Shown in pieces: positions 5,201-43,540 of a DNA stretch of 45,936 bases (position 1 is the first letter of the stretch; each line of letters opens with the position of its first letter). The DNA is taken from positions 1 to 45,936 of IMG/VR virus record IMGVR_UViG_3300021963_000213, one strand, 5' to 3'. The translations under genes and the position numbers were made by a program. The notes under the pieces were generated by a model. The model saw only the letters and a list, made by a program, of their open reading frames with translations. It was not told the origin of the DNA and did not search any database. The stretch is from a virus.

Positions 5201-8200
5201 TGGTGCTAATTTAATTAGTACTAATACTCTTGCAGTTGGTAGAATACAAGGGGTTGTTGGTGCCGGGGGTATTACGGGCAACATCCATTTAACTGCGAAC
5301 GTCATGCCGCAAGGAAATGGTCTAATTAATTTAGGTAATGCAACTAATTACTTTGGTAACGTCTATGCTAAGGTTGTTTGGAGTACCGAATTAAGAACTT
5401 CGGGTAAAACTTTATACATTGGCGACACAGAAATTAGTGTAGATGAAGATAACAATTTAGTAATTACAAATCCTAATGGGGCTACAATTACACTTAGAGG
5501 AAACTTCTCAAGTAATACAGATTTAACAACAACTAATGTTACAGAATTAATTAATTTATATTATACCAATGATAGAGTTTATTCTAATGTTACCGAAATG
5601 TTGCCAACATATACTGGAAATATTCGTTCAGGTAACATAACAATTGGATATGGCACAGGCGGGTCGTTAATTGGCGCCAATTTAATTACTACAAATATTA
5701 TTTCTGCAACAACTTGGACAGGATTATATTCATCTAATGTTGTAGAAGGTACAAATTTATTCTATACTAATGCAAGAGTATCTTCTAATGTAATTGCTTT
5801 ATTGCCGACATTAGCTGGCCCTGGTATTAATATTGCTGCAAATGGTATTATTTCCACTTCAACAAGTGCACCATATGCAGCCGACATAATTGGATTGAAT
5901 ACTGCCAATGTTGCGGAAACAACTAATTTATACTATACTAATGCAAGAGTTTATTCTAATGTAATTGCTTTATTGCCGACATTAGCTGGCCCTGGTATTA
6001 ATATTGCAGCAAATGGCATAATATCTTCCGCAGCAAGTGCACCATATGCAGCCGACATAATTGGATTGAATACTGCCAATGTTGCGGAAACAACTAATTT
6101 ATATTACACCAATGCTAGAGTCCATGCAAACGTAATTGGTTTATTAAACGAAAAAGCTAATGTAACAGACTTAACAACATCAAATGTTACTGAAGGCAAT
6201 AACTTATATTACTCTAATGACAGAGTTTATGCGAACGTAATAGGGTTGTTAAATGCTAAGGCAAATGTTGCTGATCTAACAACTGCTAATGTCGCGGAAT
6301 TAAACAATTTATATTATACGAATGCGAGAGTTTATTCTAATGTAATTGTTTTATTACCAAATTATACCGGTAATATTTCTGCAGGTAATATATTTGCAAA
6401 TTCAATTTATGGTGGAAGCGGTGGTTCTATCACTGGTGCCAATTTAATTAGTACTAATATTATTTCAGCTACAACTTGGATAGGTATAACCGCTGCTAAT
6501 GTTACAGGATTAACAACTGCTAATGTGTTGGAAGTTGGTAGTAACATATACTATACCAATGCTAGAGTTCATGCAAACGTAATTGGTTTATTAAACGAAA
6601 AAGCTAATGTAACAGACTTAACAACTAGCAATGTTGCGGAATTAAACAACTTATACTACACGAACGCAAGAGTAAGTTCAAATGTAATTGCTTTATTACC
6701 AACCTTAGCAGGTCCTGGTATTAATATTGCAGCAAATGGCATAATATCTTCCGCAGCAAGTGTACCATATGCAACAGATGTGATTGGATTAAACACTGCC
6801 AATGTTGCAGAAACGACCAATTTATTCTATACTAATGCAAGAGTATCTTCTAATGTAATTGCTTTATTGCCGACATTAGCTGGCCCTGGTATTAATATTG
6901 CTGCAAATGGTATTATTTCCACTTCAACAAGTAATCCTTACGCAACAGATGTAATTGGTTTAAACACTGCGAATGTTGCAGAAACAACCAATTTATACTA
7001 TACTAATGCAAGAGTTTATGCAAACGTAATTGGATTATTAGATGCCAAGGCCAATGTTGTTGATTTAACAACTGCTAATGTTGCGGAATTAAACAATTTA
7101 TATTATACGAATGCGAGAGTTAGAACAGCAGTTTCTGCGGGCACAGGTGTAATATATGATAATACAACAGGTATTATTTCAATTGGTCAAAATGTAGATA
7201 CTGCTGCAAATGTAACATTCGGCACGGTAAATGTTACCGGCAATTTAAATGTTTTCGGAAATGTTGTAGGATTCTACGCTAATACTTTGGTCGTTAATGA
7301 TCCATTAATACAACTAGGATATAACAACCCTTCAGATTCAATTGATCTTGGATTCATTAGTCGTTATAATGATTCGGGCACTGAAAGACACGCTGGGTTA
7401 TTTAGAGACGCAACTGATAAGAAATTTAAGTTCTTTGATAATTATTCGGTAGAACCTGGCGCATCCGTAATAGATACTGCAAATATTTCATTCCGTTTAG
7501 CGAATGTTGTAGCAACCACATTCGAAGGCAATGTAGTAGGTAATGTAACTGGCTTTGTTTCTTCAATTGGAAATTTCAGTACAACCGATTTAAATGAAGG
7601 TACTAATTTATATTACACCAATGCAAGAGTTTACGCTAATGTGATTTCGCTATTACCGCAGTATAATGGTAATTTGAGAGTAGGAAATCTGGTTGTTAAC
7701 GGATTTGAATTCTTCTCTAATAATGATATTAGTGTTAATAGAATAACTTCTAATATTTGGACAAACTTATACACAGCTAATGTATTAGAAACTGCAAGTA
7801 ATCTTTATTACACCAATGCTAGAGTTTATGCTAATGTAATTTCACTATTACCAAATTATACTGGTAATCTAAGAGTCGGTAATTTAATAGTTAACGGATT
7901 TGAATTCTTCTCTAATAATGATATTTTAGTTAATAGAGTTACTTCTAACATTTGGGGCGGTCTATTTGCTGCAAATGTTATTGGATTAACGACTGCAAAT
8001 GTAAGAGAATTTGGTAGTAACGTATATTACTCAAATGCAAGAGCAAGAACAGCAATTGTTGCTGGCAATGGAATATCTTATAGTAATGTTACCGGTGTAA
8101 TTAGTCTTAATAATTTAGTTGTTTCTGATACTGCTCCGACTTCTCCTTATAATGGTCAAGTGTGGGTTGATACTAATTATGGAACTAGATATGAATACAT

Positions 8201-8652: not shown

Positions 8653-10377
8653 ATGTCTTTAAAAGAATACGTAGTTACTGCAAAATCAATGGATGAGTTG
8701 GAGTCATTGTATAATGACTTGGAGACTGCTGGCGGCACAGACGCAGTTCCTGATAGAGTAGTTCCGGTATATCGTAGAAGACCTATAAGTCAAAGTACTC
8801 ATTATATGTTAACAGATGAGGAAGCTATTACATTAAGAAATGATCCAAGGATTCTAAATGTTGAACCAATGGAATTAATTCGTGGAAGCGTTAAATTACA
8901 TTCGTATAAGCAAACCGGCACATTTAGTAAAACAACTTATACTACAAGTATGGATGCTTCGTGGAAAAATTGGGCTCTGTTAAGATGCCTTGAAGGTTCT
9001 CAAAGAAGTAATTGGGGTGACGATGGCACAACAACTCAAAATGCAACTATTGATGTTGGCCCAACAGGTAAAAACGTTGATGTAATTATTATGGATGGTA
9101 TCTGCGGTGTGCCAGATCATCCGGAATTTGCAGTAAATGCAGATGGTACTGGCGGAAGTAGATATGTTCAATATGATTGGTATCAATTAAATTCTATTGT
9201 ATCATCTATTGACGATGACGCATCCACATTGCTAAGCGGAAGTTATTCATATGCCGCGTCTGCGTCTATTACTGATGCAAACCACGGAGCACATACTGCA
9301 GGAACCGCTTGCGGCAATACACAAGGCTGGGCAAGAGACGCAAACATATACCAAATTAATCCTGTATCGGGCGGAGTCGATGCTTTAATTATATGGGATT
9401 ATATTAGAGCGTTTCATAGAACAAAACCAATTAATCCTGAAACGGGTCGCAGAAATCCAACAATATGTAATTGTAGCTTTGGCAACAGTTTAACGTTCCC
9501 TAATAATGCATTAACTCTTAGCGCAGTTAAACAAGCAAATCGTAGAGGAACTACCGTTGGTCCTTTTGGAAGTAGTCCATATACTGCATTTACTTCCGCA
9601 CAACTAAATAGTGTTGGTATGTATAATACTACAACCTCCGGTACAGTATATGCAAATGTTCCATATTATATTGATGCAAATGCAGCAGATGTTGCTGCAG
9701 CTATTGCCGAAGGAATCATTGTTGTTGGAAGTTCCGGCAACGAAAGTTATTACGTAGATAACTCTACAGGAGTTGATTACGAAAATTGGTTTATTGCCTC
9801 ATATGGTGCGGTAACAAGTTATTATTTGTGGTATCAGCATAAAGGATCTTCACCTGCGTGTGTTCCCGGGGCAATATGTGTAGGTGCAATAGATGCAGGC
9901 AAAGTAGAACGAAAAGGTTTTTATAGTAACACCGGGAATAGAATAGATATTTTTGCTCCTGGTACATGGATTACAAGCGCATGGGCAGGATCAACCCCTG
10001 GGAGTTGGGGTGATGTAGCAGCTGATAGTAGAAACGGTAGTTATTACATGAGCAGAGATATTGGCACCAGTATGGCAGCTCCTCAAGTCACGGGCGTATT
10101 GGCGTGTATACTTGAATTGTATCCAAATATGTCACCTGCAGAAGCAACAGCATACATAAAGTATTATGCCAAATTAAATCAATTGACAGATGCATCTGGA
10201 TTATCAAGTCCAGGATGGACATCTAATACTCAAAGTCTGCAAGGCGCAACCAATAGATTTTTATTTCTGCCAAGAGAAAAGGCATTATCCGGCGCAACAT
10301 ATCCTAAGGTAAATTATAATATTAGACCAACATCTGGAAGCGTATATCCCAGAGTTAAGCGTCGTATAAGAGGTTGA
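8653..10377 (+). CDS. Subtilisin-like serine protease (peptidase S8) in the fibre cluster
   Basis: The catalytic triad of the subtilase family is complete: Asp148 in VIIMDGICG, His211 in NHGAHTAGT, Ser473 in GTSMAAPQVTG, with the oxyanion Asn363 in GSSGNE. Residues 1 to about 80 look like an I9-type propeptide (ThyMLTDEEAITLRNDPRILNVEP-like region near 51-72), which in other subtilases folds the enzyme and is then cut off. There is no signal peptide, so the protein is probably a virion component or acts in the cell. The gene lies two bases after the giant fibre gene and is probably cotranscribed. Two roles are possible: processing of fibre proteins, or digestion of host surface proteins during adsorption. 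Both are inferences; the enzyme class is well supported. The basic C-terminus (VKRRIRG) is unexplained. It ends in TGA. Confidence 0.9.
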   Translation: MSLKEYVVTAKSMDELESLYNDLETAGGTDAVPDRVVPVYRRRPISQSTHYMLTDEEAITLRNDPRILNVEPMELIRGSVKLHSYKQTGTFSKTTYTTSMDASWKNWALLRCLEGSQRSNWGDDGTTTQNATIDVGPTGKNVDVIIMDGICGVPDHPEFAVNADGTGGSRYVQYDWYQLNSIVSSIDDDASTLLSGSYSYAASASITDANHGAHTAGTACGNTQGWARDANIYQINPVSGGVDALIIWDYIRAFHRTKPINPETGRRNPTICNCSFGNSLTFPNNALTLSAVKQANRRGTTVGPFGSSPYTAFTSAQLNSVGMYNTTTSGTVYANVPYYIDANAADVAAAIAEGIIVVGSSGNESYYVDNSTGVDYENWFIASYGAVTSYYLWYQHKGSSPACVPGAICVGAIDAGKVERKGFYSNTGNRIDIFAPGTWITSAWAGSTPGSWGDVAADSRNGSYYMSRDIGTSMAAPQVTGVLACILELYPNMSPAEATAYIKYYAKLNQLTDASGLSSPGWTSNTQSLQGATNRFLFLPREKALSGATYPKVNYNIRPTSGSVYPRVKRRIRG

Positions 10378-10421: not shown

Positions 10422-11606
10422 ATGCCAACAATAAATTTTCCTTCATCTCCCAATCCAAACGATCTTTATACGTTTGGTGGAAAAACATGGCTGTATAACG
10501 GCACTGCTTGGCAATTGCAAGCACCTGTTACGTACACAGCTAATGTATTGGAGTCTGAAAGTAATCTTTATTATACAGATACTAGAGTTTACGCTAATGT
10601 TATAAATTTATTACCCACATTAGCCGGCAACAACATTAGTATTGCAGCAAATGGTCAAATTTCCGCAACAGGAACTTCTTCGGGCAGTTCATATGCTGCA
10701 GACATTATTGGTCTTAATACTGCCAATATCATTGGTCTTAACACTGCTAATGTTTCAGAATCGGCAAGCAATCTTTACTATACAAATGCAAGAGCAATAC
10801 TAAATGTTATTCCTGCAGTAACAGAGTTATTAGTTACTGCTCCTGGGATGTATTATAGTATAGATCAGTATAGTGGAAACAATCCTGCTATAGATGTAAG
10901 AGCAGGTGAAACTATAGCATTTGGTCTCAATACTTCAGGCCACCCATTCATGATCCGTGTGTCAGATGGTGGTTCTAATTATGATACTGGGTTAATTCAT
11001 GTTGATACAGACGGCACAGTCTCAACAGGATCAGCTGCTCAAGGAAAAGAATCTGGTAGATTATTTTGGAAAATACCATATAGTTTAGCTGGTAATACTT
11101 ACGTATACCAATGTTCTGTTCATAGTGGAATGGTAGGAAGTATTGTCATTTCCAAATCAGTTAGTTCTACAACAGATGTAAGCGAAGGCAGCAATCTATA
11201 TTATACCAATGCTCGTGTTTATGCTAATGTTGTTGCATTGTTACCTACCTTGGCTGGAAATAATATCAGTATTGCAGCCAATGGCCAAATTTCTGCTTCT
11301 GCGGGTAGTGTGTATGCTGCAGACATTATTGGTCTTAATACTGCAAATATTTCCGAATTAACCAATCTATATTACACAAACGCAAGAGTTTATACTAATG
11401 TTGTTGCATTGTTACCTACCTATACCGGTAATATTTCTGCAGATAATATATTTGCAAATTCAATTTATGTTGGAAGCGGTGGTTCTATCACTGGTGCCAA
11501 TTTAATATCTACTAATATTATTTCAGCTACAACTTGGACTGGATTATATGCCGCAAATGTTGTTGGATTAACAACTAACAATGTTACCGAATTAACCAAT
11601 CTATAG
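10422..11606 (+). CDS. Tail fibre with embedded cupredoxin-like domain, ends at in-frame TAG
   Basis: The N-terminus (MPTINFPSSPNPNDLYTFGGKTW) is a common phage fibre start. NLYYTNARVY repeats follow. Residues ~138-250 form a separate domain with a cupredoxin pattern: His174 in SGHPFMI, then Cys231, His234 and Met237 in YQCSVHSGM. The C-x2-H-x2-M spacing is that of amicyanin-type copper sites. The reading frame then returns to fibre repeats and stops at TAG 11604-11606, exactly where the repeat NLYYTNARV would need its first Tyr (TAT or TAC). The same frame stays open to 13046. So this is either a truncated fibre, a leaky amber, or a point mutation or sequencing error. Host adhesion is the likely role; copper binding is not shown. 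Confidence 0.82.
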   Translation: MPTINFPSSPNPNDLYTFGGKTWLYNGTAWQLQAPVTYTANVLESESNLYYTDTRVYANVINLLPTLAGNNISIAANGQISATGTSSGSSYAADIIGLNTANIIGLNTANVSESASNLYYTNARAILNVIPAVTELLVTAPGMYYSIDQYSGNNPAIDVRAGETIAFGLNTSGHPFMIRVSDGGSNYDTGLIHVDTDGTVSTGSAAQGKESGRLFWKIPYSLAGNTYVYQCSVHSGMVGSIVISKSVSSTTDVSEGSNLYYTNARVYANVVALLPTLAGNNISIAANGQISASAGSVYAADIIGLNTANISELTNLYYTNARVYTNVVALLPTYTGNISADNIFANSIYVGSGGSITGANLISTNIISATTWTGLYAANVVGLTTNNVTELTNL

Positions 11607-13046
11607 TATACCAATTCAAGAGTAAGATCAAACGTAATAACATTGTTGCCTACTTTAGCTGGTGATAATATTACTATTGAAGCAAATGGTAGAATTTCAG
11701 CTAGTGCTCCGGCATCTGGTACAGTATTTGCTACAAGTGTTATTGGGCTAAATTCAAACATCTATTCAAACGTAATAACATTGTTGCCTACTTTAGCTGG
11801 TGATAATATTACTATTGAAGCAAATGGTAGAATTTCAGCTAGTGCTCCGGCATCTGGTACAGTATTTGCTACAAGTGTTATTGGTCTTAATACTGCTAAC
11901 ATTATTGGGCTTAACACCGCTAACGTAACTGAATTAGATAATTTATACTATACCAATGCCCGTGTTTATGCCAATGTTATTGGATTGTTAAATACCAAAG
12001 CAAATGTAGGTGATTTGGATGCTAAAGCAAATGTAGGTGATTTAGATGCTAAAGCAAATGTAGGTGATTTGGATGCTAAAGCAAATGTAGGTGATTTAAC
12101 AACATCCAATGTTGCTGAAGGAACAAATCTATATTATACCAATGCCCGTGTTTCCGCTAACGTAATTTCATTATTGCAGACGCTTGCAGGCAATAACATT
12201 AGTATTGCAGCAAATGGTCAAATTTCTGCAAATGTAGATGGCGGCGGTGGCGCCACAACATTAACTGGGTTAACAGACGTTAATGTTGTTGGAACTCCGG
12301 GTGACGGACAAGTATTAAAATATGATAGTGCATCGGGTAAGTGGGTAAACGGCACTGACGCAACAGGCCCCGGCGGTAGTGGTACTTATGGTAATGCAGA
12401 TGTAGCAGCATATTTAACAGTAAATACTGGTAATATACGTGCAGGAAATGTCATAGCAAATACCTTTATATCAGGCGGTACTGGTTCCGGTGGATCTATT
12501 ACTGGTGCCAATTTAATTTCCGCAAATAATATCATTGCAAATAACATTATATCTGGCGGAAGCACCGGCGGATCTATTACTGGTGCTAATTTAATTAGTA
12601 CAAACAATATATCATCTGTAAACTGGATTGGACTATATACATCGAATGTAATTGAAACTGCTGGTAATTTATTCCTTTCAAATTCCTCATTAAGAACTGC
12701 GGTATTAAATCTTACAGATGGCACTCTTGCAGTAGATGCTAATGGTAGAATTGGTGTTAACTTCTATGCTAATTCGCAAATAATTACAGGATCATCTTCT
12801 TATGTAAATTATAATTTAAATTACGCAAATACAACTAATTCAAGTATTTTCGTAGCTATTGAGGGAATAGTACAGATTCCAGGAGTAGATTATTATGTAA
12901 GTGGTCAAACATTAACATTAACTTCGGCTCCTGACACAGGCGCAAATATTGAGGTACGATATATGGGATTAAAACAATCTCAAGGTCCTCAAACTCCTTC
13001 AACATCAATGGACACAATAAGCGCATTCTTATTAATGGGGGCGTAA
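11607..13046 (+). CDS. In-frame continuation of the fibre gene beyond the amber codon
   Basis: The frame of the preceding gene continues without another stop for about 480 codons. The first nominal start is a TTG at 11643 with no ribosome-binding site, and I see no good internal ATG until near the C-terminus, so independent translation is unlikely. It encodes fibre repeats (YTNSRVRSNVITLLPTLAGD), a perfect 118-bp duplication, four DAKANVGDL units, a GGGATTLTGLTDVNVVG-type segment, and the small C-terminal domain NSSIFVAIEGIVQIPGVDYYV that also ends the first fibre gene. Together with the upstream part it would make an 874-residue fibre if TAG is read through or reverted. Otherwise this half is a pseudogene remnant. 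It ends in TAA. Confidence 0.65.
   Translation, partial: YTNSRVRSNVITLLPTLAGDNITIEANGRISASAPASGTVFATSVIGLNSNIYSNVITLLPTLAGDNITIEANGRISASAPASGTVFATSVIGLNTANIIGLNTANVTELDNLYYTNARVYANVIGLLNTKANVGDLDAKANVGDLDAKANVGDLDAKANVGDLTTSNVAEGTNLYYTNARVSANVISLLQTLAGNNISIAANGQISANVDGGGGATTLTGLTDVNVVGTPGDGQVLKYDSASGKWVNGTDATGPGGSGTYGNADVAAYLTVNTGNIRAGNVIANTFISGGTGSGGSITGANLISANNIIANNIISGGSTGGSITGANLISTNNISSVNWIGLYTSNVIETAGNLFLSNSSLRTAVLNLTDGTLAVDANGRIGVNFYANSQIITGSSSYVNYNLNYANTTNSSIFVAIEGIVQIPGVDYYVSGQTLTLTSAPDTGANIEVRYMGLKQSQGPQTPSTSMDTISAFLLMGA
11628..11883 (+). repeat. 118-bp perfect direct repeat just after the amber codon
   Basis: Bases 11628-11745 recur at 11766-11883 (offset 138), identical by eye and in frame. 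They encode SNVITLLPTLAGDNIT followed by EANGRISASAPASGT. The first copy begins 22 bases after the TAG, which points to a recent recombination event at this place. Confidence 0.9.
11991..12098 (+). repeat. Four 27-bp tandem units encoding (D/N)(A/T)KANVGDL
   Basis: Units start at 11991, 12018, 12045 and 12072. The last three encode DAKANVGDL and the first NTKANVGDL; they differ by single silent changes. This is short in-frame expansion within a fibre linker. Confidence 0.9.
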
Positions 13047-13053
13047 AAGAAAA

Positions 13054-13383
13054 ATGACAATCGCATATAAAATTTTAGGACAATCAAATCCAATTGCGAA
13101 TACAGAAACAACGCTGTATACCGTTCCTGCAAATACCAGTGTTGTTGCATCTACATTAAACATTTGTAATCAATCATCTTCATCTGCAACATTTAGAATT
13201 GCAGTAAGACCCGGTGGCGAAACACTTGCAGCAAAACATTATATTGCATACGATACAGTAATTCCGGCATTAGATATTATTAGTTTAACAATTGGCATGG
13301 CATTGGCAACAACAGATGTTGTAACGGTTTATGCAAGCGCAAACACAATGAGTTTTAATTTATTTGGATCTGAGATTACGTAA
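13054..13383 (+). CDS. Small virion-associated protein, paralogue of 18257-18598
   Basis: A 109-residue protein beginning MTIAYKILGQSNP and containing TLYTVPANTSVV, ICNQSSSSATFRIAVRP and HYIAYDTVIPALD. It aligns along its whole length with the product of 18257-18598 (YKVLGQINP, ICNQSSANTTF, HYIVYNASLPAND). The alternating hydrophobic pattern suggests one small beta domain. There is no signal peptide or membrane segment. The two paralogues flank the LamG protein gene and probably decorate or connect the fibre or tail tip. The last base of its TAA stop is the first base of the next gene's ATG (TAATG), so translation is probably coupled. Function unknown; a structural role is inferred from context only. 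Confidence 0.7.
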   Translation: MTIAYKILGQSNPIANTETTLYTVPANTSVVASTLNICNQSSSSATFRIAVRPGGETLAAKHYIAYDTVIPALDIISLTIGMALATTDVVTVYASANTMSFNLFGSEIT

Positions 13384-16300
13384 TGGCATTAACAGGATTT
13401 GCTACCAATAAGTTAAGTACATCTAGACCTACACTAACGAGTAGAGCTATTAATTCTAAACGATTTACTAACATCCGTGGCAATTATTCAAGGTTATCAA
13501 ACCCCACAATCCCTCTCCCATATTTTGTACTGTCAACTGTTACTCCAAATGTAGTTGAGGGACAATCTCTTGCTATATCCGCGAGGGGTTATAATCTCCC
13601 AGCGGCAGATCAAAACGGATTATATTACTGGACTATTGAATCAAATGCAGGAGATTTTGGCACAACTTCTGGCAATTTTACTATGACATGGAATGGTGAT
13701 GCGTATGGATATTCGTTTGGTACTTTTTACGTGGCACCTACAAGCGATGCGGTAATAGAAGGAACCGAATATTTTACTGTTGCTTTAAGAACAGGTTCAA
13801 CTAGTGGTACTATTGTAGCAACTGCTTCATTATCAATAAATGATCCTACCACATATTTCACATTCACATCCACTCCTAATCCTGTAACAGAAGGAAGTAC
13901 TACAACAATTACTGTTCAAGGGTATAATCTTGCTATTGAAAGTGGAACATACTATTGGACAATTGAAACAAATGCTGTTGATTTCGGCACAACTTCTGGT
14001 AGTTTCACATTAACAAGCGGAGCAGGTTCATTTACGGTAAGTCCAACTTCAGATTTTGTAATAGAAGGAAATGAACCGTTTACTATTGCTATTAGAACTG
14101 GCTCTACAAGCGGGCCTATCATATCAACTTCTTCGTCATTAACAATACAAGATCTATTAGGTGAAACCTATTTTAAATTTAATACCGCACTAATATCCGC
14201 TGAACCAGTTTCGGCAAATACTTTTATTTCAACGGTAAGGCCTGTTAGTAATGTGATAACTACAGGTGGGAATACTCGTCCAAGTAAATTTAATCCTTAT
14301 ACCCCGGGATATTATAGTAGTGATTTTAGTTCAGGAAGTTACCTTCAAATAACCGACAATGTTTTATTTGATTTCGCAGGTGATTTTACTGTTGAGATGT
14401 GGATGAAAATGGGATCATTTTCCGTTGATGGCGGCGCATCGCCAGCAATAATAAGTGGTACTAACGATTCAGGTAGTTGGCTAATATTAGTTGGCGCTTC
14501 TGCTATTACGTTATACTATAATCTATCACAGGTTTTTTCCAGTACGACTACTATTGCAGTTGGAGAATGGTTTCATTTTGCATGGAGCCGTTCTTCGGGC
14601 ACTATGAGAATGTTTAAGAATGGTACTCAAATTGGATCACATACTGCATCCACCACCTATACGTGTAATGGTGATTTGTATGTGGGTGTACAAAAACCAG
14701 GAGCAGGTAGAACATATGGCGAAGTATCTAATCTTAGAATTGTAAATGGTACGGGATTATATACCGCAGCATTCACTCCAAGCACCGAGCCGTTAACCGC
14801 AATACCAAATACTGTGTTGTTGACGTGTCGCTCAAATAGAGCAAATGTTGATATTTCTTCATACAATCATCCCGTTTCCTCACAAGGGACCGTGGGAATA
14901 AAATCCTTTACTCCACTAAATCCTAATCCACTTTACAATGACTATGGAAGTGCTTGGTTCTTTACAAACGGCGGGTCAAACAACGGTGATTATATAGGTG
15001 GATTTATTTCACCTACATTGGGTACTTTAGACCACACGATTGAATTTTGGTATTACAACGATGGTGCTTTACAAACTTATGGCAATCCTTGGACATATAA
15101 TGGATCGGCAACACAACAGGCCACAAATAATTACTATCTTTCTATAGGTGCTGCTGGTTCTGGAGTATTGTTGGGAAGCGGTTCAGCATCTTGGACTTTT
15201 AATATGGGATTTACAACCCCTCCTATTAATACGTGGAATCATATTGCGTTGACACGCGCTGGTAGCACATTTAGAATTTTTGTTAATGGTATACAAGCAG
15301 GCACTGCTACAACAAGTCAAGCAATCGGCGCACCAAACGGACAAATGTTATTAGGTACTTATGCAATAGGTGCAGCAAACGGAAATTGGATTAATGGATA
15401 TATAAGTGATTTTAGATATGTTATAGGTACTGCAGTATATACCGGAAACTTTACTCCGCCTACTGCACCGTTGTTGCCTGGAGGCACAGCAGTAACTTAT
15501 CCAAGTACTGCAAATGTTAATTCAACATTTTCTGCAGCAAATACTGCGCTATTACTTTGTCAGGGCAATAAAGCTGTAACAAATAATGCATTTTTAGATA
15601 AAAGTAATAATGCTTTTGCAATTACCCGCAATGGAAATTCTACTCAAGGCACATTTAGTCCACATGGTAGTAATTGGAGTAATTACTTTGACGGTACTGG
15701 AGATTATTTAAGTTTACCAATAGGGGCATACTCTGATTTTGGTAGTGGCGCATTTACTATTGAAATGTGGATTTATCCTACTCTAACAGCAACCCAACAA
15801 GTTATAGCATTCCACGGTTGGTCTGGCTCTGGTGCATTGAATTTTGGTTGGAATATACAGATTAATACCAGTAATCAAATGGCATTTTATGCAAATGGTT
15901 CGCTGCAAGCATTCACTGATCTAGTTGCAACTATAAACGCATGGAATCATATTGCATTTGTCGGCACAGGGGGGGTATTATCTGCATACAGGAACGGGAT
16001 AAAAAGTGCAACAACTTTAACATATACTGCTATAGTAGATAGATCAACTATGACTACGGTAATTGGTGGTTGGAATGACAACAATGAATTAATTGCTGAA
16101 CGATATTTTTATAGAGGATACGTATCCAATTTTCGGGTTGTTAAGGGTACTGCAGTATATACATCTAATTTCCCTGCACCCAATGTAACCCCATTAACAG
16201 CAATAACCAATACTAGTTTTTTAACATGTCAGTCTAATCGTCTTATTGATACTTCTACAAATAGGTTTACTATTACAAAAAGTGGCGATACAAAAGTACA

Positions 16301-30659: not shown

Positions 30660-31085
30660 ATGTGGTATCTATCTCTATTACCTAATGCTTTCTTTCATGC
30701 TATTGTTGTAGCAGGAGTTGTTGCCGTACTAGGTAGTATGTTTTTGAAGATGATTACATTTGTGAGTAAGTATTACATTCCTCTAAGAATAATTGGATTT
30801 GTAGTATTCACATTTGGTATTTACTTTGAGGGCGGCCTTGCCAATGAAGAGCAATGGATAGCTAAAGTAAAAGAGATGGAAGCAAAAGTTGCTGCAGCTG
30901 AAGCTGAGGGCAAAAAGGAAACTATTAAGATTCAACAAAAGGTTGTAGTACAGCAAAAAGTTATTCGTGAAAAAGGCGAAGACATTGTGAAATATATAGA
31001 TCGAGAAATAGTTAAGTATGATAATTCTTGCATCATACCTAAAGAAGTAATCGAGACTCACAATAAAGCAGCGAAAAAAGAATGA
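30660..31085 (+). CDS. Putative inner-membrane spanin (Rz-like)
   Basis: Residues ~10-30 and ~40-58 are hydrophobic (FFHAIVVAGVVAVLGSMFL; RIIGFVVFTFGIYF), followed by a long coiled coil (WIAKVKEMEAKVAAAEAEGK, then IKIQQKVVVQQKVIREKGE). Membrane anchor followed by a periplasmic coiled coil is the i-spanin layout. The next gene overlaps it by four bases (ATGA) and encodes a small lipoprotein, as in Rz/Rz1 pairs. Spanins fuse inner and outer membranes in the last step of lysis, so the host is probably Gram-negative. Two transmembrane segments are unusual for Rz and leave the topology uncertain. Confidence 0.7.
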   Translation: MWYLSLLPNAFFHAIVVAGVVAVLGSMFLKMITFVSKYYIPLRIIGFVVFTFGIYFEGGLANEEQWIAKVKEMEAKVAAAEAEGKKETIKIQQKVVVQQKVIREKGEDIVKYIDREIVKYDNSCIIPKEVIETHNKAAKKE

Positions 31086-42401: not shown

Positions 42402-42725
42402 ATGAGTATACTTGAAATTATAATCATTGCATTTGTAATACATATGCTATTGAATTACTTCTTATTCAGAAGTAAACGGGCAGTTCTACAATATAGATTG
42501 CAAACAGTAATGGAACAGATTGAGAAAAACACAGTAATATGTTCCATTGAGATGTACGATGGCTTGATATATCTATGGGAAGATCAAACTAAAAAGTTTA
42601 TAACCCAAGGCGCAACTATCAAAGAGCTGAAAGAAAATTGCTTAAAGTATTTTCCTAATACAGCATTTGTAATATCAGGCGATGAGATTACGGTTGCGGA
42701 TGCAGAATCTGTAAAACAACCATAG
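42402..42725 (+). CDS. Small membrane-anchored protein, 107 residues
   Basis: The N-terminus (SILEIIIIAFVIHMLLNYFLF) is a single transmembrane helix followed by RSKRAV. The rest is a soluble alpha/beta domain with no motif I recognise. It ends in TAG, one of the few normal TAG stops here, which argues against a general TAG reassignment. It is the last plus-strand gene of this block; the next genes are on the other strand, converging. Function unknown. Confidence 0.65.
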   Translation: MSILEIIIIAFVIHMLLNYFLFRSKRAVLQYRLQTVMEQIEKNTVICSIEMYDGLIYLWEDQTKKFITQGATIKELKENCLKYFPNTAFVISGDEITVADAESVKQP

Positions 42726-43024: not shown

Positions 43025-43540
43025 TTAAAATTTCATCCTATCTTTTGTATGTTTAATACTATCGAGTATATCAATAGTTTTAAGTAAATCATCTTTGTAT
43101 AGAATAGCAATACCATTGCCCTTCTCATACCAATCTTCAATATTGGAAACTCTGTCATCGATTAAGATGTCTCCAGGTTTACACCATTTCCATTTATCAG
43201 TACTAAACGGACCGAAGTTGACTTTATAAGTTGGAAAGTATTTTTTAATCCAACGTGTTTTATCATCTTCAGCTTCAGGCATTGTTGTCTTACTGGGCAA
43301 CGCAGTTAAAAACTCTACATTGTATTTTGGTTCAATGCTTGAGCAATAACCGACAAGCGCAGTAGCATTAGCAAGCAATGGCAAGCGCCAATACAAATCA
43401 CCAATGGCAGTTAGCTCAGCCCATTCTGATTTTGTAATTGTTCTGTCTGTCCAATGCACAGACCTGCCTAGTTGTTTACTGACATAGCCATCAAAATCAG
43501 CAACGACCCCATCCATATCAATGTATATTGTACTACGCAT
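43025..43540 (-). CDS. HAD-family phosphatase, 5'-nucleotidase-like
   Basis: I chose the ATG at 43540 rather than the upstream TTG at 43549; it overlaps the previous TAG stop by eight bases. The product begins MRSTIYIDMDGVVADFDGYV, the DxDGVVADF nucleophile motif of HAD phosphatases of the NT5C/deoxyribonucleotidase type. Later motifs are FLTALPSK (Thr as motif II) and GDILIDDRVSNIEDW (acidic motif IV). At 171 residues it is near the usual size for phage 5'-nucleotidases. It may remove phosphate from dNMPs or related substrates during host DNA recycling. Confidence 0.82.
   Translation of the reverse strand: MRSTIYIDMDGVVADFDGYVSKQLGRSVHWTDRTITKSEWAELTAIGDLYWRLPLLANATALVGYCSSIEPKYNVEFLTALPSKTTMPEAEDDKTRWIKKYFPTYKVNFGPFSTDKWKWCKPGDILIDDRVSNIEDWYEKGNGIAILYKDDLLKTIDILDSIKHTKDRMKF

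Follow-up and report, generated by a model that had tools for sequence, protein, structure and literature searches.

The tail-fibre-like gene and its cupredoxin-like domain

The window, by which we mean the whole stretch of DNA analysed, is a virus record of 45,936 bases. On its plus strand lies a tail-fibre-like gene (10422–13046, 874 codons) that is interrupted by a single TAG (11604–11606, plus strand) and that was intact in near-identical relatives. A single in-frame stop had been pointed out in a preliminary description of this DNA, and the 874-residue translation agreed with it, the only internal stop being residue 395. As also described, the TAG replaced the first tyrosine of an NLYYTN repeat, with NL*YTNSRV (the asterisk marks the stop) in place of the NLYYTNARV of other copies. 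Among the 35 NLYY copies compared at the codon level in the window, 34 had TAT or TAC at the equivalent position and one had TAG. Beyond the TAG, the frame was open to 13046 and kept the good C-terminus noted earlier. This C-terminal part of the fibre (12750–13046, plus strand) was identical to that of the near-identical contig L010 and would be lost if translation stopped at the TAG. Close to the stop, the only candidate start codons in frame were TTG codons, and the first in-frame ATG was at 12963. An internal restart 3′ of the TAG was therefore rejected, in keeping with the earlier remark that no credible start lies downstream.

The two neighbouring frames of 2,145 and 1,623 codons, previously said to be free of in-frame TAG, were both open and contained no stops. 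Neighbouring genes matched a subtilase-type protease, Laminin_G_3 repeats and virion structural proteins, as well as a primase, thymidylate synthase and both ribonucleotide reductase subunits. Since this gene content fits a T4-like aquatic phage, the window probably derives from one. Apart from its stop, the fibre gene is an ordinary, repeat-rich gene for such a phage.

Upstream of the stop (10782–11171, plus strand), the gene encodes a predicted cupredoxin-like domain with the ligand set His-Cys-His-Met (H174, C231, H234 and M237). Such a domain had been proposed in the preliminary description, and the proposal was backed by the ligand set, a fold model and marginal profile matches. Residues 121–250 were modelled with AlphaFold2 at a mean pLDDT of 89.0, and the best PDB matches of the model were rusticyanin, amicyanin, plastocyanin and laccases, with TM-scores of just ~0.4–0.55. 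Support from the sequence was marginal: the match to Pfam PF00127 (E = 0.006) was below the cut-off of that profile, and a plastocyanin profile matched with E = 0.0056. The putative domain resembled type-1 copper cupredoxins (plastocyanin, amicyanin and rusticyanin) in its His and Cys-x2-His-x2-Met ligands and in its beta-sandwich model, but differed from them in these low TM-scores, in its marginal sequence similarity and in being embedded in a virion protein; copper binding is predicted.

The four type-1 copper ligands were invariant in 25 viral homologues, and viral matches to the fold included several annotated tail-fibre and baseplate proteins. Fibre residues 74–246 matched phrog_677, which, like gp10 of cyanophage P-TIM40, belongs with the tail-fibre proteins and baseplate wedge/tail-fibre connectors of T4-like cyanophages. 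P-TIM40 gp10 shares the ligand motifs and has the cupredoxin-like domain at its C-terminal end, whereas in the window the domain stands among NLYYTN repeats, with a long distal part beyond it. Identity to the cyanophage isolates was just 35–44% over part of the domain. Many uncultured phage contigs and some cyanophages also had a cupredoxin-like domain with invariant type-1 copper ligands in their tail-fibre or baseplate proteins (homologues L012–L087; L221, 2765–4240). The domain is a module that these phages have in common, and the window contig is not exceptional in having it. In the library of papers searched, none joined cupredoxin, tail fiber and phage.

The site of the stop in related contigs

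Viral contigs were searched with the upstream half of the fibre gene, and three of them matched with a best segment of 100% amino-acid identity. These were the IMG/VR contigs L009 (3300008108_001643), L010 (3300032093_000090, 69,939 bases; contig G002) and L011 (3300021429_000930), all of the same phage, with nucleotide identities of 99.4–99.96% to the window over the main aligned blocks around the gene. A comparison with related genomes had been suggested as a check on the stop, and it gave a clear outcome: TAT, a tyrosine codon, was present at the site in all three contigs. When the whole collection was scanned with the 35-base context of the site, leaving the variable base open, the matches were L009, L010 and L011 only, all with TAT and all otherwise identical to the window over the 35 bases (sample identifiers 3300008108, 3300032093 and 3300021429, respectively). 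Measured from stop to stop, the fibre frame had 876 codons in L010 and 830 codons in L009, with a common C-terminus. In L011, the frame was open past the site and continued to the end of the contig, which falls inside the gene. Annotated phage records yielded no match to the fibre gene with blastn.

There was no sign that the stop recurs elsewhere. The 108 frames taken from the window and the fetched relatives held 1,033 repeat motifs, and just one of these, in the window, had an internal stop. A scan of the collection for NL-TAG-YT, which covered one codon spelling, gave 41 matches, all outside fibre frames and none in a fibre repeat. Interrupted repeat frames in L017 and L024 were considered as second cases and rejected, as they look like true gene ends with new genes after them.

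Within the fibre gene, the window and G002 differed at six bases, five of them in a 40-base patch at 10800–10839 and the sixth at 11606. In coding terms, four of these were synonymous, one replaced an amino acid and one created the stop. The TAG base was the sole difference between the two sequences from 10839 to 14770. All four sequences covered 5,005 positions, at 17 of which the window had a private base: eight in a patch at 7338–7379, five in the patch at 10800–10839 and four isolated ones, including that of the TAG. The other genes compared between the window and G002 held no further internal stop on the window side; stop differences at 30750 and 30951 were on the side of the relative, in divergent, gapped alignment. 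The idea that the base had been copied from a different repeat of the window was rejected, because no k-mer of at least 11 bases spanning it was present at a second place in the window. The base is thus private and isolated, in a gene that is intact in the relatives.

Origin of the stop

As computed for this gene, approximately 4.2% of single substitutions create a stop, so that, with a handful of changes, a single nonsense change is no statistical surprise. At the level of sequence comparison, the informative point is that the stop was missing from every near relative found. The TAG is very probably a private single-base change in the window assembly, due to nonsense mutation or to an error in the consensus rather than to any programmed use of a stop. 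Between a private nonsense allele and a base-calling or assembly error we see roughly even chances, which is a judgement and not a computed value. We infer that the stop has no function. A recent nonsense mutation, or a wrong consensus base, would have created the TAG in this one assembled sequence. If the base is real, the fibre would be 394 residues long, with the cupredoxin-like domain still present but the distal repeats and the C-terminus missing; if it is not, the consensus base would simply be wrong.

The preliminary description had left four options, namely strain truncation, readthrough giving two fibre lengths, a phase-variable population and sequencing error. The TAT in all three relatives speaks for the first and the last, while readthrough and phase variation were unsupported, because no recurrence of the stop was seen, the relative had no suppressor tRNA and the downstream RNA had no unusual structure. 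Under readthrough, whether programmed or merely tolerated, a real UAG would be partly suppressed in the natural host, and one population would carry two forms of the fibre, a full-length one and a short one that stops after the cupredoxin-like domain. On the basis of dN/dS, internal stops in bacterial genes have been proposed to be read through (PMC7918605), and both the TTG-only restart codons near the stop and the fully preserved downstream frame would suit it. The preservation is uninformative, however, since the near-identity of the strains is enough to explain it, and it carries no information on selection after the stop arose. Against readthrough, the near relatives encode tyrosine at the site, so the stop is not conserved. 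A CUA-anticodon tRNA was found neither in the window, a fragment of its phage's genome in which no tRNA genes were found, nor among the 21 tRNA genes of G002 (all 21 by ARAGORN, 20 also by Rfam); a suppressor may still be encoded in the rest of the window phage's genome or by its host. A second tRNA-Tyr reported by ARAGORN (L176, 1976–2054) was rejected as a suppressor: its reported anticodon is GTA and not CTA, it is missing from the Rfam list and it folds poorly. Folding of the RNA 3′ of the TAG was no better than that of shuffled sequences (z = −0.56 and −0.07). We therefore regard partial suppression, and with it the coexistence of two fibre lengths in one population, as very improbable.

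Reassignment of TAG to an amino acid in this phage has in its favour that the one in-frame TAG falls on a conserved tyrosine. Under recoding, long genes would be expected to contain several TAG codons in frame, but all long frames together held just this one. The relatives have TAT, no CUA-anticodon tRNA was found in G002, and TAG terminates an ORF at 42725, as had been noted for a normal terminator near 42723; the triplets at 43533 and 43942, putative further gene ends, are also TAG, on the minus strand. The earlier view that general recoding is unlikely was supported, and the probability of reassignment is negligible.

The TAG might also be a minority or local-majority allele in a mixed population, held under selection, for example where host range or the receptor favours loss of the distal fibre. 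A precedent exists in kayvirus 812K1/420, a spontaneous host-range mutant with a premature tail-fibre stop caused by a 77-bp deletion (PMC6445280). In its orf119, as in the gene of the window, a premature stop interrupts a fibre gene in one variant, and the gene is whole in close relatives. The kayvirus data come from sequenced isolates, whereas the TAG of the window results from a single substitution, in a contig of an uncultured virus, that may be a consensus error. The TAG was present in no second contig, and a single case is uninformative on selection; a selected allele is very unlikely. If the base of the private change favoured here were confirmed, the window would carry a tail-fibre nonsense variant of the ordinary kind, which might affect host range. 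Spontaneous nonsense and truncation alleles of phage tail-fibre genes are already known. The case is mainly a cautionary one: when one contig of an uncultured virus shows a lone in-frame stop, comparison with a few near-identical contigs can settle the matter before readthrough or recoding is invoked.

Other differences between the contigs

The patches at 7338–7379 and 10800–10839 held 13 of the 17 window-private bases in the region shared by the four contigs, and look like short recombination or assembly patches. Directly 3′ of the TAG, a tandem pair of 138-bp (46-codon) units (11628–11903, plus strand) varied in copy number between the near-identical contigs, with two copies in the window, L010 and L011 and one in L009, which accounts for the shorter fibre frame of L009. 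The tRNA genes of G002 (L176, 1–9188) were concentrated in one cluster (19 of 21), whereas the window fragment was without any. In L009, the subtilase gene lacked approximately 126 bases (around 2882; window 9783–9908) and its protein matched in two pieces with stops, possibly the result of a real deletion or of an assembly fault.
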